DNA of 43,581 bases from Gammaproteobacteria bacterium (GTDB lineage Bacteria > Pseudomonadota > Gammaproteobacteria > Steroidobacterales > Woeseiaceae), in NCBI GenBank assembly GCA_009937605.1, contig JAACFG010000003.1, forward strand, positions 1 through 43,581, given 5' to 3'. The notes beneath the pieces were generated by a model. That model did no database searches. It was not told the DNA's origin and saw only the letters and a list, made by a program, of their open reading frames with translations. Positions 28,506 to 41,556 of the stretch are shown in pieces. Both the position numbers and the translations under genes were made by a program. Each line of letters opens with the position of its first letter. Within the stretch, counting starts at the first letter, position 1.

Positions 28506-29774
28506 ATGAGTCTTTTCACCGATGCGCGGCAAGTTATTGCTGGCGGCGTTAATTCCCCGGTCCGCGCTTTTGCGAGCGTTGGCGGCGAACCCATCTTCTT
28601 CAAGAGTGCCAAAGGCAGCCGTTTCCAGGCCGAAGACGGCAAGGAGTACATTGACTATGTTGGCTCGTGGGGACCCATGATCCTCGGCCACGCGCACCCG
28701 GAGGTGATCGATGCTGTCGTCACCACAGCGCAGCAAGGACTGAGTTTTGGTGCCCCGTGCGTTCTGGAGACAAAAATCGCCGAGAAGATCTGCTCGATGC
28801 TGCCAACGGTGGACAGGGTCCGGATGGTCAGTTCCGGGACCGAAGCGACCATGAGCGCCATTCGGCTCGCTCGCGGCCATACCGGTCGTGACAAGATCAT
28901 CAAGTTCGAGGGCTGCTACCACGGCCACTCCGATTCTTTGCTTATCAAAGCGGGCTCCGGCGCGCTGACACTCGGTGTTCCGAGCTCACCGGGCGTTCCG
29001 GCAGGGCTGGCTGAACACACGATTACGCTGTCCTACAACGACATCGACGGTGTAAAGGCGGCATTTGCCGAGATTGGCGACCAGGTTGCATGCGTCATCG
29101 TTGAACCCATCGCCGGCAACATGAACATGGTGCCACCCGTGGCTGGCTTCCTTGAGACCTTGCGCGAGGAATGCACCAAGGCTGGCGCTTTGTTGATTTT
29201 CGATGAGGTCATGACCGGCTTTCGCGTGGCAAGGGGTTGTGCCCAGGCCGTATTCGGAATTGAGCCCGATATCACGACGCTTGGAAAAGTCATCGGCGGT
29301 GGCATGCCCGCGGCGGCGTACTGCGGTCGTGCCGATGTTATGGCCAGCATCGCGCCCGATGGGCCGGTCTACCAGGCGGGCACTTTGTCCGGCAACCCGG
29401 TCGCCATGGCGGCAGGCCTCAAGACGCTCGAGAAAATCGACGACGACGCTTTCTGGGCATCGCTCACGGCGAAAACCCGGAAGCTGGTTGACGGACTGGC
29501 GGCAGCGGCGGCCGACGCGGGCATTCCGGTATCGGTTGAGGCCGAGGGTGGCATGTTCGGCATGGTCTTTACGGCTGATGGCCCGGTTCGCTCCTACGCG
29601 CAGGTCGCGGCCGGCGACGTCGATCGCTTCAAACGTTTCTTCCACGGCATGCTGGACGAAGGCATCTACCTGGCACCGTCAGCGTTCGAGGCGGGCTTCG
29701 TCTCAGCCGCGCACAGCGACGATGATATCGATGACACCATCGCCGCCGCGAGCAAAGTCTTCGCGACTCTTTAG
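28506..29774 (+). CDS. hemL: Glutamate-1-semialdehyde 2,1-aminomutase
   Basis: PLP enzyme that moves the amino group of glutamate 1-semialdehyde to form 5-aminolevulinate in C5 haem synthesis. The 422-residue protein starts [16 protein letters not shown] and shows [11 protein letters not shown], the PLP Asp in [10 protein letters not shown], and Lys261 in [12 protein letters not shown]. Strong AGGAGG, partly within a small hairpin. It shares its last four bases (TTAG) with the convergent TonB receptor gene. Confidence 0.97.
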
Positions 29775-31852
29775 AAGTTGAAAATTACGCCGGCAGATAA
29801 GGTCCGCTCGGCGCCATAGAGCCGCTCGCCGACAGGAATATCTGACCCGTTTGCGCGATTGATACCGGCGACATGGTCCTGGTATGTCTTGTCGAACAGG
29901 TTATCGACGCGAGCCTCCAGGCGCAGGGCCTCGGTGGGATACCAAACAAGCGCGGCATTGACGAGCCCGTAACCCGCTGTTGCTTGTTCGTCATTGAATG
30001 CGGAGACTTTGTCCTGCCTGGCATAGCCAACAATCTCGGTCATCACTGACAGCAGATCGTTTTCCCAGGTCAGGCCGAGGCTGGCATTCAGCGGCGCCAA
30101 CCGATACAGGTTGTCACTAACGTCCGTTCGGCGACCACGCGCGTATGTGGCGATGCCATCGATATACCACTGATCGGCCAGCTCGACTTTGAAGGCAAGG
30201 TCAATACCGTAAATCTCGGCATCGACGTTGGCGAACTCCAGCGCTGGTTTCCCGGACATCATCTGGGAAACCATATTCGCGACCATGTTGGTTGACGGGA
30301 CACCCTGGATATAGCCATTGACCTGGCGATAGAAGACCTGCGGCGAAATCGTAACGCGCCCAGCCTCCTGGCCGTAGCCGACCGTGATCTCATTGGAGCG
30401 CTCTGCGTCCAGATCCAGTCCGCCGATGTAATTGCGGCCATCGGCCAAGCCACCCGTGGCCTGCAGCGGCAGCCAAAGGTAGAGCTCCTGGTAGGACGGA
30501 GCACGCGTTTTGCTACCCAGCTCGACGCGCCATTCGGAGTCGTCGGACATGCGCAATCGATACTTCACTACAGCATCGACTGAGTCCCAGTTCAGGTCCC
30601 TGTTCGCCGCGTTAAAATCATCTGCAAGCAAATCAACATTAGTGCCCATGGGGCCCATCATGCCGCTCGCACTGACCTCGCCTGCATTTGCGTCGACGCG
30701 CTTGACGCGAAATCCGAGCTCAAGATCACCGCGGCTCGTATCGCGTTGCCACTCGATGAATGCCGACGTCACGTCCCTCGTCACATCAACGAAATTGTCG
30801 ACGCGGAACATTGCGTTGTTCGGGTTCGTAATCGTCGCCTCGTGATTCGCCGTGCTTGTGTCGATTCCAATCCTGAGCCGTGACGTCGCGAGCTCAAAAT
30901 CAGCATCGGCACTCACCTGCCCGCCTGCGCCTGTTGCGAAGTTCTGGCGCTGTGCCATCGGCATAGGCGCCTGGCGCAGACCGAAGTTGTCCATCAGGTG
31001 CTCGACATCATTCCAGCCGGCACGAAGGTTTAATGAAATCCCGTCAGTGATTTCGACAGAGCCCTCTGCGCCGGCAAGGTCTGTCTTGATAAAGCGAATG
31101 TCCATTGGCAGTGCCGGTGTACCGGTATCATCGGTGTCGAGCCTGCCGACATACAGCTGCAGGTCGACAGAGTTGCCCGCGAACGCATAGCTCAGGTCCG
31201 CACGTTCGCGATGCAGGCGCGATGGCCGCATGACGCCGACCGGCGTCGTGATGTCATCACCGTCATCGACCGCTGCAATCAACGATACCTTGTGGGTGGT
31301 GCTCGCATAGGTGAGCCTGCCGGCTGACGTACTAACGTTGCCATTTCCCGAATATCGCGTACCAGCAAAGCCGGACCATTTGGCGTCGGCCTGGCTGAAA
31401 GCACCACGGGACAGTCGCAATGCCATGTGCCCACCCACGGACTCGGGTGCCAGCGACACGCTCGCCACGCCACGTGTCACATCAAGGTCCTCGGTGATCA
31501 AGGGCGACGCGTAAGACATAGGCGTATCCATCGCATTCGGTCCACCCGAGACAACACCGAGATGATCGATAACAACCGAGACGCGATCGCCATACATGCC
31601 TCGATACTGTGCGATTCCCGTCACAGGACCGTTGGCATTGACGTTGGCGCCCGGTATGTCCTTCAGTATGGTCGCTGTGTCCACGAGCATTTCGCGGTCG
31701 ACTTCTATTTGTACGAGGCCTGTCGAGACTGATCGCCCGACGACAACAACTTCGTCAACCTCGGACTCGGCACCGCTCTCCGGCTGCTGTGCACCGACGG
31801 CGGCGGACAGCAGCAATGCAGCCATGCTGGCCGCGCTTGCAGAATAATTCAC
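29771..31852 (-). CDS. TonB-dependent outer-membrane receptor, probably copper
   Basis: Outer-membrane beta-barrel receptor of 693 residues: signal peptide ending near VGAQQ (about residue 22), a TonB box-like DEVVVVG, a plug domain (about 45-160, with [15 protein letters not shown]), and a barrel ending in the C-terminal Phe (GVIFNF). The plug sequence and Met-rich patches ([23 protein letters not shown]) resemble the OprC/NosA copper receptor group. The Cys of the OprC copper site is not obvious, so copper is an inference, strengthened by the DUF2946 gene just upstream. Start is GTG with AGGAGA six bases before. Confidence 0.88.
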
Positions 31853-31918: not shown

Positions 31919-32308
31919 TCAGACAGGAGGAGCTCTCGAGCGGTAGGCCGTTGTCGACGAGGCGTGCACCACCGTCGACGGCACGATATTGAACCAGGTT
32001 GCCTCTGGAATGAATTCAGGTGGCGCGGCAGAATCTACTGCAACCGCGGATGCCAGCATGTGGCCAATCGGGCATTGCTCTGTTGCCGATACCGAATCGG
32101 CACTGGTGTCGCCATGACCATGGTGGCCATGGTGCTCGTCGCCCGCGAGCGCCTGCATGATCTCTACAGGCATTCCGGACGGGCAGAGTTCGTACAGCAG
32201 GCCGCTGCCCTGGCTGCCCGGCATGTACCCGTCCGGGGTCAACGCGCGCAGCGACAGCATCGCCAATGAGGCGATGAGGAGCAGCTTGTTGCGGACGGAC
32301 AAGTTCAT
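31919..32308 (-). CDS. DUF2946 family His-rich small exported protein
   Basis: Small protein of 129 residues with an N-terminal hydrophobic segment (about 8-22), an ELCPSGMP motif, a His cluster (residues 59-65, HHGHHGH with an intervening Gly pattern), and a second CPIGHM motif. This arrangement of paired Cys-Pro motifs and a His stretch fits DUF2946, which often sits next to copper or other metal TonB receptors. It may bind metal in the periplasm. Start chosen at ATG 32308, with AGG upstream; a start at 32368 would add 20 unlikely residues before the signal segment. A possible -10, TATACT, lies at 32323-32318. Confidence 0.75.
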   Translation of the reverse strand: MNLSVRNKLLLIASLAMLSLRALTPDGYMPGSQGSGLLYELCPSGMPVEIMQALAGDEHHGHHGHGDTSADSVSATEQCPIGHMLASAVAVDSAAPPEFIPEATWFNIVPSTVVHASSTTAYRSRAPPV

Positions 32309-32389
32309 AAGTACCTGAGTATAGTGGCAAGACGGCTCTGCACTAACTGGCAGACGGTACGGTATCAACTGCCCGACAGGACAGTTAAA

Positions 32390-33057: not shown

Positions 33058-33200
33058 AATCTGGGGATGCGCTACCGCGCTATGAGCCTGTACGAGGTAC
33101 AGGACCCAAAGTGTCGCAAAACCAGGCGGCGAATGGGTTTCAGGGAGATTTCAGAATGTATCCATTTGTTTCTCACCGATCGCGTTGCTCCTATCTTGCG
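33030..33200 (-). ncRNA. Candidate small RNA upstream of cpxR, minus strand
   Basis: The region from about 33200 to 33030, read leftward, ends in the strong terminator described at 33030-33057. It contains a perfect 7-bp hairpin CCTGTAC-CTC-GTACAGG (33089-33105 region) and a small GCGC-GGTA-GCGC stem. The 5' end is unknown and no strong promoter is visible (a TACATT box is the best candidate). This 240-base gap contains no protein gene. Confidence 0.3.
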
Positions 33201-33223: not shown

Positions 33224-33919
33224 ATGACCAAGGTTCTCCTGATCGATGACGATCGCAAGCACTCTGCGTTGATGCAGGCGTATTTCAAGCGTTTCGGCAT
33301 TACGCTCGTCTGTGCTTATGACGCTGAAGAAGGATTCAAGAAGCTGAGTCGGGAAGAGCCGGATCTGCTCCTTCTGGATATCATGTTGCCCGGCAAGGAC
33401 GGCTTTCAGATTTGCCGCGAAGTGCGAAAGAACAACAACATACCGATCATTATGCTCACCGCCCGAGGCGATGTTTTCGATCGAGTCTCGGGGCTCGAAC
33501 TGGGCGCCGACGACTACATCGGCAAACCATTTGAACCCCGCGAGTTGGTTGCTCGAGTACAGGCCACGCTGCGACGCTCGGAGATCACGGGCTCCACTGT
33601 CGGCGAGCTGGCCTTCAATGGATTGACGATCGAAACGGAAACCCGGACCGTTCGTGTCGATGACGAAGTCGTTTCGCTCACGTCGATGGAGTACGAACTG
33701 TTGCTGATCCTCGCGCGCCGACATGGGCGCAAATTATCACGCGACGACATTCTCAGTGAATTGCGAGGTATTGATGCCGCTATCCTGACTCGGTCTGTCG
33801 ACATCATGGTGAGTCGCCTGCGCCAAAAACTCGGTGATACGGTCAAGCCGGCGCGCTTTATCCAGACGGTCTGGGGCCGCGGCTATTCATTCGTGGGCGT
33901 TCCGAAAACGGATGATTAA
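33224..33919 (+). CDS. cpxR: OmpR-family response regulator, CpxR-like
   Basis: Two-component response regulator of 231 residues: receiver domain (1-120) with the acidic pocket IDDD, phospho-acceptor Asp52 in LLLLDIMLPGKDG, Thr in IMLTARG and Lys in YIGKPFEPREL, then a winged-helix DNA-binding domain (about 130-228, ending RGYSFVG). The stretch RVSGLELGADDYIGKPF closely follows CpxR, but RstA-like identity is not excluded. ATG at 33224 chosen; a start at 33185 adds 13 residues not typical of the family. It overlaps the kinase gene by eight bases. No cpxP is present. Confidence 0.9.
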   Translation: MTKVLLIDDDRKHSALMQAYFKRFGITLVCAYDAEEGFKKLSREEPDLLLLDIMLPGKDGFQICREVRKNNNIPIIMLTARGDVFDRVSGLELGADDYIGKPFEPRELVARVQATLRRSEITGSTVGELAFNGLTIETETRTVRVDDEVVSLTSMEYELLLILARRHGRKLSRDDILSELRGIDAAILTRSVDIMVSRLRQKLGDTVKPARFIQTVWGRGYSFVGVPKTDD

Positions 33920-35255
33920 TCGCCTTTCGCGATCGCTTTCATTTCGCCTCCTCGTCATTTTCATTGTACTGGGTGGCCTGTTCGTACTCGGCACGATCGA
34001 GGCAGTCCAGCGCTTCTACAATAGCGACCAGATTCGCGGCCTTATCAGTGGCCACCTGTCGCTCCACGTAAGCTACGTGCGCGAAGATATCGGCGTTCCG
34101 CCGCGAATTGAGCGCGCTATCGCAATTACGGAAAAGGTCCCCGTCGACATTCGCATCCTGGGTCCTGATATTGACTGGGCCTCCGATCAGGCGTTTCCTG
34201 GACTCGAGCAGCTGGTGTTCCAGCCCAGCCCTCGATTTAGCGACAACCCGGGTGCCTGGGCCGATGAACTTGCCGGTGTGGATTTCGCCAGCCTCGACAA
34301 CCACGATTTCCTTCGCATTCGGCAGGGCGGCTACCAGATTGTCGTGTCGACGCCGAGAATCTCGGACGTGCCCGAGGGCCCGGCATTGATTCCGCTTGTC
34401 CTGGGCCTGGGTCTTTTCTTCCTGCTTATCGCTTATGCGGCCGTAACGTGGCTGTTCCGTCCGATCAGGACGATTCGTTCCGGCGCCGAACACATTGGCC
34501 GTGGCAACTTCGACTTCCGCATAGCGAACATTCGCAGCGACCAGCTCGGCGATCTTGCAACGGACATCAACAAGATGGCAGGAGACGTCGAGGACATGCT
34601 CGATGCCAAGCGTGCCCTGCTGCTCGGAATCAGCCACGAGCTGCGCACACCCTTATCGAGGATGAGACTCGCTCTCGAATTTCTGGGTGAAGAAGACGAT
34701 GCCGAGGGCCTGAGGGCAGAAGTTATCGAAATGGAGACGATCGTCAGTTCGTTGCTTGAGGCCGAACGTCTCAACAGCCGGCACGCGCAGCTATTCCGTT
34801 CCGAGGCCGATATCGGCGACCTGGTCGCGGACATGCTGGAAAGCTTCTTTTCGCGCGACAGGGACCGAATTGTCGTATCACAGCCCGATGAGCCCATCGT
34901 AGCGTCGGTCGACCCAGCCCGCATTACGCTGCTCCTGAAAAACCTCGTCGGCAATGCTCTGCGCTATTCGAAACCTGAGGACGGCCCGGTCGAGCTCGTC
35001 CTCTCTTCTGCACACGACGAACTCATCATGACTGTTTCTGATCATGGCCCGGGGCTGAGCAGGGACCAGGCGGAACACATTGGAGAACCCTTCTACCGTA
35101 GCGATCAGTCCCGGACACGGGAATCTGGCGGTACCGGCCTTGGGCTCTATCTCGCAAGCCTTGCCGCGGAAGCGCATGGTGGCTCTCTGAAACTCCTCGA
35201 CACGGGTGCTCAAGGTGCCAGTTTCGAGGTTCGGATCCCCCTGGTCGACAGTTAA
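33912..35255 (+). CDS. cpxA: Sensor histidine kinase, CpxA-like
   Basis: Inner-membrane sensor kinase of 447 residues: TM1 (about 11-28), a periplasmic sensor of about 130 residues, TM2 (about 159-181), HAMP, the HisKA phospho-site His242 in ISHELRTPLSR, and an HATPase domain with N box NLVGNALRYS, G1 DHGPGLS and G2 GGTGLGLYLA. The phosphatase motif after His (HELRTP) allows it also to dephosphorylate its partner. The call as CpxA rests on the paired regulator and size. ATG 33912 overlaps the end of cpxR. Confidence 0.9.
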   Translation: MINRLSRSLSFRLLVIFIVLGGLFVLGTIEAVQRFYNSDQIRGLISGHLSLHVSYVREDIGVPPRIERAIAITEKVPVDIRILGPDIDWASDQAFPGLEQLVFQPSPRFSDNPGAWADELAGVDFASLDNHDFLRIRQGGYQIVVSTPRISDVPEGPALIPLVLGLGLFFLLIAYAAVTWLFRPIRTIRSGAEHIGRGNFDFRIANIRSDQLGDLATDINKMAGDVEDMLDAKRALLLGISHELRTPLSRMRLALEFLGEEDDAEGLRAEVIEMETIVSSLLEAERLNSRHAQLFRSEADIGDLVADMLESFFSRDRDRIVVSQPDEPIVASVDPARITLLLKNLVGNALRYSKPEDGPVELVLSSAHDELIMTVSDHGPGLSRDQAEHIGEPFYRSDQSRTRESGGTGLGLYLASLAAEAHGGSLKLLDTGAQGASFEVRIPLVDS

Positions 35256-35350: not shown

Positions 35351-35378
35351 TTCAGTTATCTGAACAAAGTCAGTTTGT
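35351..35378. promoter_or_regulatory. Two overlapping palindromes before the lipid operon
   Basis: TTCAG-TTAT-CTGAA (35351-35364) and ACAAA-GTCAG-TTTGT (35364-35378) are perfect 5-bp inverted repeats placed end to end just upstream of the CpxR-box-like site. They could be an operator for a second regulator. Confidence 0.35.
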
Positions 35379-35391
35379 AAACGAATGTAAC
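35377..35391 (+). promoter_or_regulatory. CpxR-box-like site
   Basis: GTAAA-CGAAT-GTAAC matches the published E. coli CpxR recognition sequence GTAAA-N5-GTAAA at nine of ten specified bases. It lies 121 bases after a CpxRA-like pair and upstream of the lipid-modification operon. A candidate promoter follows (TTGTGG at 35408-35413, 17-base spacer, TATGTT at 35431-35436), placing the box near -59, a normal activator position. Confidence 0.5.
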
Positions 35392-35407
35392 AGGGCCACT
35401 CAAGCCA

Positions 35408-35436
35408 TTGTGGACCCCGCGCACGGACCGTATGTT
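35408..35436 (+). promoter_or_regulatory. Candidate promoter of the lipid-modification operon
   Basis: TTGTGG and TATGTT are spaced by exactly 17 bases; matches to the sigma-70 consensus are 3/6 and 4/6, as would be expected of an activator-dependent promoter. The predicted start is near 35443, just ahead of GGAGG and the ATG at 35464. Confidence 0.35.
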
Positions 35437-35463
35437 GGCACTCTGATGATTTTGGAGGCCGCC

Positions 35464-36510
35464 ATGAGCGCCATCACTGCAACTGCGGTCAACTGGACCG
35501 AAACAGGACTCGTTCCGGATACCGTTATACGTGCCGGTATCAGGAGACTCCTGGAAGCCAAACGCAAAGAGATCCACTCGGGCGATATCGAGTACGCCGC
35601 GGAGGCGTTGAACGGATTCGTCGCCATGATGAATGACTCGCCGATCGCGCTGGTACCTGACCTCGCGAACGAACAACACTACGAAGTCCCCGCTGAGTTC
35701 TTTTCTCATGTCATGGGCGACCACCTCAAGTACAGCTGCTGCCACTGGGGCCGTGACGTTGGCAACTTGTCGGAGGCCGAGGCCGCTGCGCTTGAGTTGA
35801 CCGTGGAGCGAGCCGGCATAAAGGATGGCATGCATATTCTCGATCTCGGCTGCGGCTGGGGATCGCTCTCGCTGTGGATCGCTGAACACTTTCCCCACGC
35901 ATCCGTTACATCCGTCTCAAACTCATCATCGCAACAAGACTTTATCCGCCAGCGGGCGGCCGAGAGATCGATCGACAACGTCGACGTAATCTCCTGCGAT
36001 ATGAATACTTTTGAAACTGACAAACGATTCGACCGGGTCGTGTCTGTCGAGATGTTCGAACACATGCGCAATTACGGCGAGTTGTTCCGGAAAATAGACA
36101 AGTGGCTGTTACCCCAAGGCCACTTCTTCATGCATATCTTCTGCCACCGCACCACGCCCTACGAGTACATCGATAACGGGCCAGGCGATTGGATGAGCAG
36201 ACACTTCTTCAGTGGCGGCATCATGCCAAGCGCCGATTTGCCGCTGCGTTTTCCGGCAAACCTCAATATCGTGAATCGCTGGCACTGGAGCGGTCAACAC
36301 TATGCCAGGACGTGCAATGCCTGGCTCAGCAAGATGGATGAGAACAAGGCCCGGATAATGCCGGTTCTTGAAAAATGTTATGGCGAGGCCGATGCGTCGC
36401 TTTGGTGGCAGCGCTGGCGCATATTTTTTATGGCTTGCGCCGAGCTGTTCGACTACGACGAAGGTCAAGAGTGGTTCGTCGGTCACTATCTATTTGAGAA
36501 GGCAGCTTAA
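35464..36510 (+). CDS. SAM methyltransferase, CFA/coclaurine N-methyltransferase-like
   Basis: CFA-superfamily methyltransferase of 348 residues. SAM site ILDLGCGWGSLSLWIAEHFP begins at residue 125 (LDLGCGWG). Residues that hold bicarbonate in E. coli CFA synthase have counterparts here: Cys92 (KYSCCHW), Glu199 (VEMFEHM), His224 (FMHIFCH) and Tyr280 (HYARTCNAW). Overall sequence is closest in style to plant coclaurine N-methyltransferase-like proteins, which are also CFA relatives. Substrate is unknown; an unsaturated phospholipid acyl chain or an amine headgroup is possible. Start at ATG 35464 because GGAGG precedes it; an ORF start at 35410 has no ribosome site. First gene of a seven-gene operon. 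Confidence 0.88.
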   Translation: MSAITATAVNWTETGLVPDTVIRAGIRRLLEAKRKEIHSGDIEYAAEALNGFVAMMNDSPIALVPDLANEQHYEVPAEFFSHVMGDHLKYSCCHWGRDVGNLSEAEAAALELTVERAGIKDGMHILDLGCGWGSLSLWIAEHFPHASVTSVSNSSSQQDFIRQRAAERSIDNVDVISCDMNTFETDKRFDRVVSVEMFEHMRNYGELFRKIDKWLLPQGHFFMHIFCHRTTPYEYIDNGPGDWMSRHFFSGGIMPSADLPLRFPANLNIVNRWHWSGQHYARTCNAWLSKMDENKARIMPVLEKCYGEADASLWWQRWRIFFMACAELFDYDEGQEWFVGHYLFEKAA

Positions 36511-36513
36511 GAC

Positions 36514-37059
36514 ATGTTACTTCTGATGAACTTTGCGGTATTCGAGATCGCCTGGCTGTCGTCGGTTATAGGTGCCGCCCAACAAATGCCATGGTTGGGG
36601 CCAATGGCGGCCGTGATTGCATTGGCGCTGCATCTGCGGGCCGCGCGCAGGCCGTTTGAGGAAGTCCTGCTGGTACTCTGTTGCGGACTGATTGGCGCAA
36701 GCTTCGACAGCATGCTGGTAACCGCTGGCTGGGTCTCTTACGAAGCCGGGATGTTCAGCAATTACCTCGCGCCCTACTGGATTGTCACGATGTGGATGTT
36801 GTTTGCGACAACGCTAAACGTCTCGATGCGCTGGCTCAGAGGTCGGCCAAAACTCGCAGCACTGCTCGGCCTGTACGGCGGCCCGGCATCGTACCTGGCA
36901 GGACAGGCTCTTGGCGGTATCGTCATAGTCAACCAGTTCGCAGCGCTTACGGCGCTTGCTCTCGGCTGGGCTGTCATTATGCCGGTTCTAATGTGGCTGG
37001 CGGAACACCTGGACGGCATGCCGGGGCCGCGCCGCAAATGGACCGCGGAACGCACCTGA
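36514..37059 (+). CDS. DUF2878 family membrane protein
   Basis: Inner-membrane protein of 181 residues with about five hydrophobic helices and an invariant-looking GASFDSMLVTAGW segment (about 56-70) and APYWIVTMWMLFATTLN (about 86-102), both typical of DUF2878. No enzymatic motif is recognised. Starts three bases after the previous stop. DUF2878 genes recur in bacterial clusters with Cfa-like methyltransferases, COG2907 oxidoreductases and DUF1365, so a role in membrane-lipid chemistry or transport is inferred from context. Confidence 0.85.
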   Translation: MLLLMNFAVFEIAWLSSVIGAAQQMPWLGPMAAVIALALHLRAARRPFEEVLLVLCCGLIGASFDSMLVTAGWVSYEAGMFSNYLAPYWIVTMWMLFATTLNVSMRWLRGRPKLAALLGLYGGPASYLAGQALGGIVIVNQFAALTALALGWAVIMPVLMWLAEHLDGMPGPRRKWTAERT

Positions 37060-37075
37060 TAAGGAGTACCAAATT

Positions 37076-37732
37076 GTGATACGTAATCTCTCTGCAGTCC
37101 TGGTGTTCATCCTGATGAGCCCCGCATTTGCTTCGCCTGCCGCCGGCCAGACCGGTGCAGGAGAGGTTGCCTCCTGGGACTTCGTTGTTTACCTAAACGA
37201 CAAGAAAGTCGGTAAACACGAATTCAAAGTGATTGAAACGGGCGGAATACGACAAGTACAAAGCGAGGCCAGTTTTACGGTTAAGGTGCTGTTCATACCT
37301 GCCTACCGCTACCAACACAGCGCGGCGGAACGCTATACGGATAACTGCCTGGTTGAATTCGACGCGAGCACGAATGCCAATGGCGAGCGCATCCGGGTAT
37401 CCGGAGCGCGCTCCGGCGCGGGGTTCGTTGTCGAAAGAGACGGCGCTCCGGTCGAGCTGCCTGAATGTGTCATGACGTTCGCTTACTGGAACCCGGACTT
37501 TCTGGAACAACCACGCCTGTTGAATCCCCAGACCGGGGAATACGTCGATGTTCGCGTCGAAAACCTCGGCGAAGAGACCCTCGATTTTCGCGGCCAGTCA
37601 GTTGCAGCAACGCGCTTCAACCTAAAGGCCGATGAGGTGGACCTGACGCTCTGGTATTCAACCGATGACGAGTGGCTCGGCCTCGAGTCAGTAGCCAAAG
37701 GCGGACACATCATCCGTTATGAGCGTTCCTGA
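37076..37732 (+). CDS. Secreted DUF3108/DUF6134-like protein
   Basis: Exported protein of 218 residues with a signal peptide (cleavage near ASPAAGQ, about residue 25). The mature part begins WDFVVYLNDKKVGKHEFKV and is predicted all-beta, resembling the DUF3108/DUF6134 group, whose members may bind lipid-like ligands in the periplasm. Start is GTG at 37076 with AAGGAG nine bases upstream. Position in the operon suggests handling of the modified lipid; this is inference. Family assignment is by resemblance only. Confidence 0.75.
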   Translation: MIRNLSAVLVFILMSPAFASPAAGQTGAGEVASWDFVVYLNDKKVGKHEFKVIETGGIRQVQSEASFTVKVLFIPAYRYQHSAAERYTDNCLVEFDASTNANGERIRVSGARSGAGFVVERDGAPVELPECVMTFAYWNPDFLEQPRLLNPQTGEYVDVRVENLGEETLDFRGQSVAATRFNLKADEVDLTLWYSTDDEWLGLESVAKGGHIIRYERS

Positions 37733-37733
37733 C

Positions 37734-38264
37734 ATGCGCACCGCTACAAAATTTGCCGCCCTTGCATGCGCCGTAGTCCTGTTCGGCGGGTGCGCGGCAA
37801 AAGGACCTGAAATGAAAACCGTGGACTACGTGGACATCGATCGTTTCATGGGACCGTGGTATGTCATTGCCAACATTCCGACGTTCCTCGAAAAGGGTGC
37901 GCACAACGCCGTCGAGACTTACACCCTGAACGACGATGGGACAATCGCGACGAACTTCAAATTCAGGAAGGACAGCTTCGACGGCAAGATCAAGGAATAC
38001 AATCCAAAAGCATTTGTAATGAACAAAGAGACAAACGCGTTGTGGGGAATGCGCTTTGTCTGGCCGATCAAGGCCGATTATCGAATCGTTCATCTCGACG
38101 ATGAATACCAGCACACAATCATCGGCCGTCAGGACCGTGATTACGTGTGGATAATGGCGCGCACGCCGACCGTATCAGGTGCCGACTATGACAAACTGCT
38201 GTCGGTCGTGGAATCGCTGGGATACGACACGTCGAAGATCGAAACCGTGCCACAGCGCTGGTGA
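37734..38264 (+). CDS. blc: Lipocalin family lipoprotein, Blc-like
   Basis: Lipoprotein of 176 residues with lipobox LFGGC (Cys20) and the lipocalin signature FMGPWYVIANIPTF, followed by an eight-strand barrel pattern and the closing DYVWIMARTP. E. coli Blc is an outer-membrane lipocalin that binds lysophospholipids and is induced in stationary phase. The start at 37734 gives a standard signal; an in-frame ATG at 37719 overlaps the previous gene and is also possible. The next residue after Cys is Ala, not Asp, which in E. coli rules would send it to the outer membrane. Four bases separate it from the next gene. Confidence 0.92.
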   Translation: MRTATKFAALACAVVLFGGCAAKGPEMKTVDYVDIDRFMGPWYVIANIPTFLEKGAHNAVETYTLNDDGTIATNFKFRKDSFDGKIKEYNPKAFVMNKETNALWGMRFVWPIKADYRIVHLDDEYQHTIIGRQDRDYVWIMARTPTVSGADYDKLLSVVESLGYDTSKIETVPQRW

Positions 38265-38268
38265 CCCG

Positions 38269-39543
38269 ATGAAAATAGCAATTATCGGTACCGGAATTGC
38301 TGGAAATGTCGCTGCCTACAAGCTACGGCAGGAACATGACATCACTGTGTTCGAGGCCGGCTGCTATGTCGGTGGCCACACGAATACTGTGGATGTTGTC
38401 GAAAACGGCCGCCAGTTCGCGGTCGACACGGGTTTCATCGTCTTCAACGATCGTACCTATCCAAACTTCATTTATCTGCTTGACGAGATCGGTCAGGCGT
38501 CGCAGCAAAGCGAAATGAGCTTCAGTGTCCAGGCCGAAGGCAGCAATATCGAATACAGCGGCTCTTCCCTGAATACGCTGTTCTCGCAGCGCAGGAACAT
38601 CCTTCGCCCGCCGTTTTACCGGATGATTCGCGACATTCTCCGTTTCAACAAGACAACCCTGCCGAGCGTCGAACACCTCGACTACTCGGAGTCGGTGGGT
38701 GATTACCTCTTCGAGAACGGCTACAGCCACGAATTTGTAGATCACTATCTCGTGCCCATGGCCGCAGCAATCTGGTCAGCAGAACCAGTGTCGGTTCTGG
38801 ACATGCCGATTAAGTTCCTTGCCCGGTTCTTCGACAATCACGGCTTGTTGCAGATCAAGGATCGACCGACCTGGCGTGTCGTTAAGGGCGGATCCCGTCA
38901 ATACGTCGAAAAACTCGTAGCCGCTCACCGCGACCGAATTCGCCTGAACTCCCCTGTTCAGTCGATTCGTCGAATTGATGATCGTGTGGAACTACGCTCG
39001 GCATCCGGCGGTACCGAATTATTCGACTACGTTTTCGTCGCCTGCCACAGCGACCAGGCGCTGTCCCTGATAGAGGATGCGACAACTGCGGAGCGCCAGG
39101 TACTTGGCGCGATTCAATATCAGTCCAATGAAGCAATACTGCATACCGACGATTCATTGATGCCAACCCGACGGCGCGCCTGGGCGGCCTGGAACTACCA
39201 CATCCCGGAGGATTCATCGCGTCATGTTGCCGTCACCTACAACATGAACATCCTCCAGGGTCTGCGGACCGATAGCCAGTACCTGGTTACCCTGAATAAC
39301 GACCGTCGGATCGACCCAGGGAAAGTCATACGGAAGATTCAGTACGAACACCCGATGTACTCCCGAGAATCGGTCGCAGCGCAGGGTCGACAGGCCGAAA
39401 TCAACTGCGACCGGACGTTTTTCTGCGGCGCGTATTGGCGCAACGGTTTTCACGAGGACGGCGTCGTCAGCGCGCTGAACGCCATCGAGCATTTCGAGGA
39501 GAGGCTAGCCGATGGAGAGCTGCATCTACGAAGGGCGAGTTAA
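38269..39543 (+). CDS. FAD-dependent oxidoreductase, COG2907/amine-oxidase-like
   Basis: Flavoprotein of 424 residues with the dinucleotide motif IIGTGIAG (Gly7, Gly9, Gly12), EAGCYVGGHTNTVDV, and a C-terminal FAD contact CGAYWRNGFHEDGVVSAL. The GGHTNTV motif marks COG2907, a group related to amine oxidases and phytoene desaturases. In plants, a similar flavin domain is fused to the CFA-synthase domain, which links the two chemistries. Likely substrate is an acyl chain of membrane lipid (desaturation or oxidation), by inference. Overlaps DUF1365 by 32 bases. Confidence 0.9.
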   Translation: MKIAIIGTGIAGNVAAYKLRQEHDITVFEAGCYVGGHTNTVDVVENGRQFAVDTGFIVFNDRTYPNFIYLLDEIGQASQQSEMSFSVQAEGSNIEYSGSSLNTLFSQRRNILRPPFYRMIRDILRFNKTTLPSVEHLDYSESVGDYLFENGYSHEFVDHYLVPMAAAIWSAEPVSVLDMPIKFLARFFDNHGLLQIKDRPTWRVVKGGSRQYVEKLVAAHRDRIRLNSPVQSIRRIDDRVELRSASGGTELFDYVFVACHSDQALSLIEDATTAERQVLGAIQYQSNEAILHTDDSLMPTRRRAWAAWNYHIPEDSSRHVAVTYNMNILQGLRTDSQYLVTLNNDRRIDPGKVIRKIQYEHPMYSRESVAAQGRQAEINCDRTFFCGAYWRNGFHEDGVVSALNAIEHFEERLADGELHLRRAS

Positions 39544-40282
39544 ACACTCGCGCTCCAGACCAGCCAGACACCAGTTCAGCTACCGTCTGTTCCTGATGTA
39601 CCTGGACCTCGATGAACTGGACACACTTTTTAAGAGGCGCTGGTTCTGGTCCACGTCGCGCCCTGCGCTTGCGAGGTTTCGGCGTAGCGATCACTTCGGA
39701 CCCGAAGACCAACCCCTTGCTGAAGCAGTGCGGGATCGGGTGGAGAAAGAGACCGGCAGACGGCCCAGCGGCTCTATTCGCCTGCTGACCAACCTGTCCT
39801 ACTTCGGATTCTGCTTTAACCCGGTGAGTTTCTACTACTGCTTTTCGGCTGATGGCGAACAGGTGGAATACATCGTCTCCGAGGTGCATAACACGCCTTG
39901 GGGAGAGCGCGACACCTATGTACTGGACTGTCGCAAGACCGCCATGTTCGAGTCGTCCTGGCGGTTCAGTCCCAGGAAGAAGATGCATGTCTCGCCTTTT
40001 ATGCCGATGGAAGTCGAATACGACTGGGTATTGTCTCAACCGGCGGATCAACTGTCGGTGTTCATGGCGAATTCCCAGGAAAGCATTCGAATCTTCAGCG
40101 CAACCATGAGTCTGAGTCGCAAGCCGATTACTACGTGGTCCTTGTCCTCGGTGCTCCTGCGATTTCCGCTACAGACATTCAAGATCATTCTCGCGATCTA
40201 CTGGGAGGCCTTGCGCCTCTGGGTCAAGCGATGCCCGTTCTATACGCATCCACAAAAGGAAGAAGAGGCAACGGCACGATGA
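39512..40282 (+). CDS. DUF1365 family protein
   Basis: Protein of 256 residues in DUF1365 (COG3496), recognised from its start CIYEGRVKHSRSRPARHQFSYRLF (key part KHSRSRPARHQF), the central NLSYFGFCFNPVSFYYCF, VSEVHNTPWGER and the FSPRKKMHVSPFMPME segment. A C-terminal hydrophobic stretch (about 213-238) may attach it to the membrane. Biochemical role unknown. It almost always sits between a COG2907 flavoprotein gene and a Cfa-like gene, exactly as here. ATGA overlap with the next gene. Confidence 0.92.
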   Translation: MESCIYEGRVKHSRSRPARHQFSYRLFLMYLDLDELDTLFKRRWFWSTSRPALARFRRSDHFGPEDQPLAEAVRDRVEKETGRRPSGSIRLLTNLSYFGFCFNPVSFYYCFSADGEQVEYIVSEVHNTPWGERDTYVLDCRKTAMFESSWRFSPRKKMHVSPFMPMEVEYDWVLSQPADQLSVFMANSQESIRIFSATMSLSRKPITTWSLSSVLLRFPLQTFKIILAIYWEALRLWVKRCPFYTHPQKEEEATAR

Positions 40283-41556
40283 GTACAAGAACCAACTCCA
40301 TACGCACCGCAGAATTGACCTACGCGACCAGGAAGCCTGCCTGGCTGGACAGGCTTGCAAAGCGCCTCGTCCTCGCTCAGCTCGCGAAGCTGCGCGAAGG
40401 ACAGGTTGTCATCATTCAGAATGACACGCGAACGCGCTTCGGCCAACAGACCCGGGATTTTCCGCGATCAATCGAGCTGCGCGTTCTCGATTCCGAGTTT
40501 TATCGTGATATCGCGTTTGGCGGATCGATCGGGGCCGGAGAAGCGTACATCCAGGGGCACTGGGTCTGCGACGACCTGGAGGACCTGCTCCGCATTCTGC
40601 TCCGGAACCGGGACGTCCTCGAGAAAATGGACTCAGGCCTAGGTCGACTCAGCGTGCCATTGCAGAAATTGTCTCACGCACTGAATCGAAACACACGATC
40701 AGGCAGCCGCAAGAATATAGCTGCGCACTACGATCTCGGCAACGACTTCTACCAGTTGTGGCTGGACGGGACGATGATGTATTCAAGCGCCTACTTCGAC
40801 TCACCAGAGACTTCTCTTGAGGACGCGGCTGTCGCAAAGCTCGACCGAATCTGCAGGAAACTTGATCTTTCTGCGAATGATTCCGTCATCGAGATCGGCA
40901 CGGGATGGGGTGGCTTTGCAATACATGCAGCCCGGCACTATGGCTGCCATGTCACGACAACAACGATCTCACAACAGCAATACGAGTACGCGAAACAGGC
41001 TATCCACGATGCCGGTTTGGACGACCGGATCACACTGCTGCTCAAGGACTATCGGGATCTGGATGGAAGTTTCGACAAGCTTGTGTCGATCGAGATGATC
41101 GAAGCCGTTGGTCACGAATACCACGATACCTACTTCAGCAAATGTTGTGAGTTGCTGAAGCCTGACGGCATGATGCTACTGCAGGCAATTACGATTGCCG
41201 ACCAGCGATACGACCAGTACAAAACCGGAGTCGACTTCATCAAGCGGTATATCTTCCCGGGAGGCTGCCTGACGTCAGTAACCGATATGACCCGGACCAT
41301 GACCACCCAGACTGACATACGGGTAATTCACCTGGAGGACATTGGGCCACATTACGCGACGACCTTAAATCACTGGCACAAGCGGTTCCTGAGTCGTATC
41401 GATGAGGTTCGCGCTCTCGGCTACTCGGAGTCGTTCATTCGCATGTGGCGGTTCTACCTGGCCTACTGCGAGAGCGCGTTTTCCGAAAGAGCGACAGGCG
41501 TCGTCCAAATGCTCATGATGCGGCCGGGTACTCGCTGCGATCACGTTCGCTACTAG
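40279..41556 (+). CDS. Cfa-like SAM methyltransferase of the COG2907-DUF1365-Cfa trio
   Basis: CFA-synthase family methyltransferase of 425 residues with an N-terminal lipid-binding part (about 1-130), NIAAHYDLGNDFYQLWLD (key part HYDLGNDFY), the SAM site VIEIGTGWGGFA (about 203-214) and the family block DFIKRYIFPGGCL. Two residues of the E. coli CFA-synthase bicarbonate site are changed: the Cys of YSCAYW is Ser170 (YSSAYF) and the His of LLHTI is Gln302 (LLQAI); Glu275 and Tyr359 remain. It therefore may methylate without forming a cyclopropane. The start at 40279 overlaps the DUF1365 stop; an upstream in-frame start at 39898 lies deep inside DUF1365 and is rejected. Confidence 0.92.
   Translation: MSTRTNSIRTAELTYATRKPAWLDRLAKRLVLAQLAKLREGQVVIIQNDTRTRFGQQTRDFPRSIELRVLDSEFYRDIAFGGSIGAGEAYIQGHWVCDDLEDLLRILLRNRDVLEKMDSGLGRLSVPLQKLSHALNRNTRSGSRKNIAAHYDLGNDFYQLWLDGTMMYSSAYFDSPETSLEDAAVAKLDRICRKLDLSANDSVIEIGTGWGGFAIHAARHYGCHVTTTTISQQQYEYAKQAIHDAGLDDRITLLLKDYRDLDGSFDKLVSIEMIEAVGHEYHDTYFSKCCELLKPDGMMLLQAITIADQRYDQYKTGVDFIKRYIFPGGCLTSVTDMTRTMTTQTDIRVIHLEDIGPHYATTLNHWHKRFLSRIDEVRALGYSESFIRMWRFYLAYCESAFSERATGVVQMLMMRPGTRCDHVRY

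Follow-up and report, generated by a model that had tools for sequence, protein, structure and literature searches.

The contig JAACFG010000003.1 of an uncultured gammaproteobacterium of the family Woeseiaceae (NCBI assembly GCA_009937605.1) was analyzed as a single stretch of 43,581 bp, referred to here as the window. It carries a seven-gene operon, downstream of the genes for a two-component system, which we read as a dedicated, two-component-controlled unit that makes and handles a dimethyl furan fatty acid, with a probability of roughly 0.72. The pathway is known, and the new part is the two-component regulatory wiring. As scavengers of singlet oxygen, furan fatty acids are protective, and the bacteria studied place their synthesis under σE-ChrR or the light-sensing repressor LitR. 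Here, the steps to a dimethyl furan fatty acid and the periplasmic helpers would all lie in one compact operon, governed by one two-component system whose sole other operator is its own, which would give a clean and testable circuit. If so, we know of no earlier example of a two-component regulator in control of furan fatty acid synthesis, and among the papers searched, none that links a response regulator to furan fatty acid genes was found, as judged by titles and abstracts. Gene identities, clade membership, the conserved promoter and operator, and the co-occurrence of regulator and operon come from sequence comparison of the 3.12-Mb assembly (86.6% complete) with its relatives.

Predicted furan fatty acid operon

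Approximately 210 bp after the histidine kinase gene, seven open reading frames (ORFs) run on the same strand with overlaps or short gaps (35464 to 41556), which bears out the unidirectional run of seven genes described in the original prediction, made from the DNA alone. All seven products score above the Pfam gathering cutoffs (in order, CMAS, DUF2878, DUF6134, Lipocalin_2, Amino_oxidase/NAD_binding_8, DUF1365, and CMAS).

35464..36510, + strand: M1, FufM-type methyltransferase, 348 aa; 45 to 48% identical to the Rhodopseudomonas FufM-type protein over the full length; clade support, 100
36514..37059, + strand: DUF2878 inner membrane protein; Pfam, 135 bits; hydrophobic segments
37076..37732, + strand: DUF6134 exported protein with an EipB (DUF1849)/LolA-like beta fold; Pfam, 177 bits; fold from predicted structure
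37719..38264, + strand: Blc-type lipocalin, probable lipoprotein; Pfam, 145 bits; Blc model below cutoff; signal sequence ends in FGGC
38269..39543, + strand: UfaD-type flavin adenine dinucleotide (FAD) oxidoreductase/desaturase (COG2907-like); 43% identical to the Rhodopseudomonas UfaD-type protein encoded next to ufaO-ufaM
39512..40282, + strand: UfaO-type DUF1365 protein; Pfam, 278 bits; 32% identical to the Rhodopseudomonas UfaO-type protein, which has the same place in the order
40279..41556, + strand: UfaM-type methyltransferase; UfaM clade (support, 95), apart from E. coli Cfa and Rhodopseudomonas Cfa2

The most likely start of M1 is the ATG at 35464, because it follows a GGAGG and because the conserved −10 element (35431 to 35436) lies downstream of the GTG at 35410, which would thus precede the transcript. 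The third product had been described as DUF3108/DUF6134-like; only the DUF6134 part of that description stands.

As Lemke et al. (2020, PMC7380195) showed, vaccenoyl chains become a monomethyl furan fatty acid through UfaM (Cfa-like), UfaD (an FAD protein), and UfaO (DUF1365). The operon encodes a COG2907-type FAD protein, a DUF1365 protein, and a CMAS-type methyltransferase together in the order D-O-M, and in Rhodopseudomonas palustris XCP, homologues of these last three genes also stand together in that order (43%, 32%, and 38% identity, respectively). In a tree of 49 CMAS sequences, made by a quick method and with E. coli Cfa as a long branch, the last methyltransferase of the operon falls in the UfaM clade, separate from true cyclopropane synthases. 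The earlier reading as a lipid modification operon linked to the furan fatty acid pathway is supported, and we consider it highly probable that the operon specifies this pathway.

FufM (RPA0924) of R. palustris methylates the monomethyl furan fatty acid again in vitro, giving the dimethyl form; the two R. palustris candidates besides UfaM, RPA3082 and RPA0924/FufM, are 38% and 26% identical to it, respectively, and RPA0923 was deleted alone and together with RPA0924 (PMC7380195). FufM has been reported to be 37.9% identical to Arabidopsis AT4G33110, an S-adenosylmethionine methyltransferase of lipid droplets. Our comparison used named relatives in Rhodopseudomonas, with strain CGA009 outside the set, and found at most three CMAS family proteins per genome (the UfaM type, a second Cfa, and an M1-like protein). 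The second Cfa is approximately 35 to 38% identical to the last methyltransferase of the operon. The third protein is 45 to 48% identical to M1 over the full length, with only approximately 26% identity to the operon CFA protein and 27% to the UfaM of its own genome, and in strain XCP a DUF1295 gene precedes it with a 4-bp overlap, which fits RPA0923 without proving it. Since there are at most three CMAS proteins, since the third is so distant from UfaM, and since the preceding gene fits RPA0923, elimination points to the third protein as FufM. M1 groups with this protein (support, 100), so that the two CFA-superfamily methyltransferases noted earlier become a UfaM-type enzyme, encoded last, and a FufM-type enzyme, encoded first, rather than a second Cfa. 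As M1 is of the FufM type, the predicted product is a dimethyl furan fatty acid, and the operon is predicted to encode all four known steps to it. FufM activity of M1 itself seems probable from this grouping.

Within the genus, 18 further loci retain the order M1-DUF2878-(DUF1295)-DUF6134-lipocalin-ufaD-ufaO-ufaM; two run off a contig end inside M1, three break off before ufaM, two have no DUF6134 gene, and three have lost ufaDOM. These full or near-full copies dispose of the idea that the seven genes are adjacent by chance only. The DUF1295 (steroid-reductase-like) gene follows DUF2878 in L032, L033, L036, L037, L050, L053, L055, L058, L059, L061, and L062; the window has no such gene, which elsewhere comes before the M1-like gene both in Rhodopseudomonas and on plasmids. 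Plasmids of Rhizobium, Mesorhizobium, Burkholderia, Cupriavidus, and Acinetobacter (six plasmids from three classes, with incomplete gene annotation) carry an M1-type gene with a ufaD-type gene, DUF1295, and mostly a lipocalin gene, and several of these loci also carry an extracytoplasmic function (ECF) sigma factor with ChrR, or a photolyase. On the Acinetobacter piscicola plasmid pYH12207-1 (L143), the genes ufaD-ufaO-ufaM-DUF1295-M1 are followed by another histidine kinase and regulator. At 22 to 31% identity, these were rejected as the same system and belong to a different two-component system, possibly an independent link of this type to the furan pathway.

Approximately 10 relatives have a DNA photolyase gene close to the operon or the regulator gene, on the opposite strand. 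At L035, L038, L040, L041, L047, L050, L053, and L056, it is directly upstream of the operon, with the operator between them. Photolyase is also contained in the light-induced ufa region of Pseudomonas (PMC9758184) and in the σE-ChrR core regulon (PMC5507510).

Two-component system and its predicted operators

The regulatory features of the locus are as follows.

33157..33172, + strand: predicted autoregulatory operator TGTATCCATTTGTTTC, tandem TGTWWC with a 10-bp period at −67 of the regulator gene; found in 27/30 orthologous promoters
33224..33919, + strand: OmpR-family response regulator, 231 aa; Response_reg and Trans_reg_C domains; best NCBIfam model OmpR (217 bits, below cutoff)
33912..35255, + strand: sensor histidine kinase; first transmembrane segment at residues ~5 to 34, periplasmic part at ~35 to 152, second transmembrane segment at ~153 to 185, then HAMP, HisKA, and HATPase
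35376..35392, + strand: predicted operon operator TGTAAACGAATGTAACA, a 10-bp direct repeat; kept in ~25 congeners and the sole exact copy in its own genome
35408..35413, + strand: −35 element TTGTGG (consensus of relatives, TTGTTG); 17-bp spacer to the −10 element
35431..35436, + strand: −10 element TATGTT (consensus of relatives, TATATT), from aligned promoters

OmpR-family regulators bind 10-bp tandem repeats. The regulator combines a receiver with Trans_reg_C, and direct repeats approximately one helical turn apart are found at both its own promoter and that of the operon, as expected of the OmpR/PhoB family. TGTWWC-N4-TGTWWC occurs in the 27 orthologous regulator promoters nearly always at −66 to −68, against an expectation of 0.06. 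At the operon promoter, the GTAAA-N5-GTAAC box that had been noted earlier is indeed present (GTAAACGAATGTAAC, 35377 to 35391), although in relatives the first half-site is mostly GTAAG, not GTAAA. Among 25 aligned promoters, the box holds 1.65 bits per position versus 0.30 in the preceding 60 bp, and the footprint TGTAAgcGAaTGTAACA is followed, at near-constant positions, by TTGttG, 17 bp, and TATATT, an arrangement of the σ70 type. The box is far from a chance match: TGTAA-N5-TGTAACA has a single exact copy in the 3.12-Mb assembly, at the operon promoter. Across 61 genomes, it has 34 matches, 22 of them at the operon promoter, versus 6 for a reversed control pattern; the match in G035, a genome without the operon, is inside a coding gene. 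The L074 regulator promoter combines both half-sites (TGTAACTAGATGTATC), and in a genus of another family (L101), the regulator gene is divergent from DUF2878, with TGTWWC sites between. These layouts suggest that one regulator protein binds both the operon site and its own promoter.

A broad regulon was rejected as a candidate, since the further sites in the same genome look like chance: one-mismatch boxes number four elsewhere versus nine for the control pattern, and the two extra TGTWTC repeats are both within long ORFs. In two relatives (L330 and L331, in G019 and G024, respectively), TGTTTCATGTTGTTTC lies upstream, by approximately 55 bp, of an ORF for an alpha/beta-hydrolase-like lipoprotein that is orthologous in the two genomes, a possible extra target of the regulator.

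Invariant columns are about as frequent in the periplasmic part of the kinase as in the HAMP/DHp region (53% versus 54%). Residues 35 to 95 have 69% invariant columns among 11 orthologues, versus 33% in the ATPase domain, which suggests a specific ligand or partner. AlphaFold modeled the kinase with low confidence (predicted local distance difference test [pLDDT], 65.8).

Within the genus, regulator and operon are both present in 26 genomes and both absent from 8; two genomes, both incomplete, have only the regulator, and none has only the operon (Fisher P = 1.5e−6, which ignores phylogeny). Among 23 genomes of other families, five of the five with the regulator also have DUF2878 (P = 0.014, likewise ignoring phylogeny). 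The pair is adjacent to the operon in approximately 13 genomes and apart from it in approximately 14, several times 21 to 33 kb off on the same contig. Chance adjacency of the regulator is therefore half borne out, although co-occurrence and shared sites still tie the pair to the operon; because adjacency is not universal, these are more telling than the adjacency noted earlier. Taken as genomic evidence, they support well a dedicated control of the operon by this two-component system.

Contrary evidence and alternative readings

Several observations weigh against our reading. Three relatives, G009, G013, and G022 (L049, L045, and L046, respectively), show a clean loss of ufaD-ufaO-ufaM and keep M1-DUF2878-DUF6134-lipocalin and an intact box, without ufaD or a close ufaM. 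The operon UfaO is only 32% identical to that of Rhodopseudomonas, and the half-sites differ between the two promoters (TGTAAC at the operon and TGTWTC at the regulator gene). The co-occurrence counts ignore phylogeny, and the absences may represent one or a few events. No photolyase was found in the window or elsewhere in its 86.6% complete assembly. In the three relatives, either M1 has another substrate, furan lipids are obtained otherwise, or the module is decaying. Such loci imply that the front four genes either work on furan lipids from another source or have a function that does not depend on making furans de novo, and because of them our confidence in the FufM activity of M1 is lowered more than that in the pathway.

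These front modules without ufaDOM would fit an M1 that acts on a nonfuran substrate, for example an amine, like its plant N-methyltransferase relatives, or a different unsaturated or branched lipid, so that ufaDOM and M1-DUF2878-DUF6134-lipocalin would be two modules under one switch. The best solved-structure match of M1 is plant coclaurine N-methyltransferase, of the same family, and the Rhodopseudomonas protein is only 47% identical to M1. However, M1-type genes sit with ufaD-type genes in 6/6 plasmid loci examined, from three proteobacterial classes; M1 and the Rhodopseudomonas FufM candidate share a clade with full support (100); and FufM turns mono- into dimethyl furan fatty acid in vitro (PMC7380195). 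A nonfuran role of M1 thus appears unlikely, if worth keeping in mind.

The pathway could also be as we propose and the box be bound by another, unlinked regulator, with the neighboring two-component system a bystander, as might fit the location of the pair away from the operon in approximately 14/27 genomes and operon half-sites (TGTAAC) that are not identical to the TGTWTC before the regulator gene. Yet none of the 26 operon-bearing congeners lacks the regulator, the regulator-bearing genomes of other families all have DUF2878, the 10-bp tandem TGTWWC layout is common to both promoters, both half-sites meet in L074, and in another family sites lie between the divergent regulator and DUF2878 genes. 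We therefore regard a bystander role as quite improbable.

The original prediction saw a CpxR/CpxA-like pair and an envelope stress operon. A true CpxR/CpxA pair with the lipid operon as a member of a broad Cpx regulon, which would accord with a box resembling the GTAAA-N5-GTAAA-like CpxR consensus, the 41% identity of the regulator to E. coli CpxR, and the export of several operon products, is very improbable given the model scores (NCBIfam CpxR, 178 bits versus a cutoff of 341; CpxA, 152 versus 486; both below those of OmpR or MtrB), the GTAAG half-site of relatives, a single exact box that leaves no broad regulon with this motif, and the absence of the pair where the operon is absent. On these scores and the comparison with E. 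coli, the CpxRA identity was rejected: the regulator is closer to OmpR (44%) than to CpxR, with RstA at 39%, and its DNA-binding domain is nearer to RstA (41%) and OmpR (37%) than to CpxR (30%). The sensor domain of the kinase matches no Pfam family and does not resemble CpxA, to which it aligns only in short local stretches; cpxP is not next to the pair, whose upstream neighbor is unrelated and lies on the other strand. Since the identity fails, envelope stress as the stimulus has lost its support.

The earlier claim that control differs from an ECF sigma factor with ChrR does hold, and ECF11 σE-ChrR control was rejected: ChrR was above the cutoff in 0/60 relatives, and the incomplete genome at hand has weak partial matches only. 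LitR control was likewise rejected, as TGTACA-N12-TGTACA is absent from the 260 bp upstream of M1. Because of the pathway and the photolyase neighbors, photo-oxidative or lipid oxidation stress seems a more likely stimulus than misfolded envelope proteins.

Proposed mechanism

Regulator binding, the direction of control, the enzyme activities, the stimulus, and the roles of the three accessory proteins are what we infer in the following scheme. Phosphorylated by the membrane kinase, the OmpR-family regulator would bind the tandem TGTWWC sites of 10-bp period at its own promoter and that of the operon and, once bound, would activate transcription from the σ70-type promoter. UfaM would then methylate a vaccenoyl chain on a phospholipid, UfaD would desaturate the methylated chain with FAD, UfaO would insert oxygen from O2 and close the furan, and M1 would add the second ring methyl. 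For the DUF2878 protein in the membrane, the DUF6134 protein in the periplasm, and the lipocalin, the probable task is to move the modified or oxidized lipid or to sequester it. The role would most likely be protection from singlet oxygen, light, or lipid peroxidation.

The export-side parts proposed earlier are supported, as both the DUF6134 protein and the Blc-type lipocalin begin with a hydrophobic signal and the DUF6134 protein has an EipB/LolA-like predicted fold. Its predicted structure (pLDDT, 88.9) is closest to Brucella EipB (6ntr; Z score of 15.4 over 185 residues at 9% identity), with LolA, LmcA, and RseB ranking below. From these predictions, it is a reasonable inference that the two proteins handle lipid in the periplasm, and the operon would suggest roles for DUF2878 and DUF6134.

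A further idea, speculative and on balance doubtful, is that the lipocalin and the DUF6134 protein present furan fatty acids, their singlet oxygen breakdown products, or another oxidized lipid to the kinase, which would detect this ligand directly in the periplasm. If true, this would be a dedicated lipid oxidation two-component circuit that makes its own scavenger, and a third independent wiring of the furan pathway to photo-oxidative stress.

Outside the operon, upstream of the regulator gene, the minus strand encodes a TonB-dependent-receptor-like protein (29771 to 31852), adjoined by a small ORF with a signal-like N terminus (31919 to 32368).

Comparison with known systems

The closest likeness is to RPA2571-2570-2569 (ufaD-ufaO-ufaM) and the unlinked fufM (RPA0924) of R. 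palustris (PMC7380195), which have the same three genes in the same order, a FufM-type enzyme, and a predicted dimethyl product. Unlike in R. palustris, fufM and the DUF2878, DUF6134, and lipocalin genes here share one operon with ufaDOM, next to an OmpR-family two-component system. In Rhodobacter sphaeroides, σE-ChrR controls RSP1091-1087 and ufaM (PMC7380195, PMC6852236). The likeness lies in the ufaD and ufaO homologues, the photo-oxidative context, and the photolyase of the core regulon; the lineage studied here differs in that it has no ChrR, is predicted to use a two-component regulator, and has ufaM inside the operon. In Pseudomonas putida and Pseudomonas mendocina, phrB, a short-chain dehydrogenase/reductase gene, an FAD oxidoreductase gene, and ufaM are under class II LitR/LOV (PMC9758184), which likewise joins furan genes and photolyase to a dedicated light stress regulator, whereas the operon promoter here has a tandem site of the OmpR-family type instead of the LitR operator. 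Brucella EipB (DUF1849) resembles the predicted DUF6134 fold with very little sequence identity, and likeness of fold does not equal likeness of function. E. coli CpxR/CpxA share with the present pair the winged-helix response regulator family and tandem GTAA-type half-sites, but the pair here is below the cutoffs for both, has a different sensor domain, and apparently serves a dedicated target rather than a broad target set.

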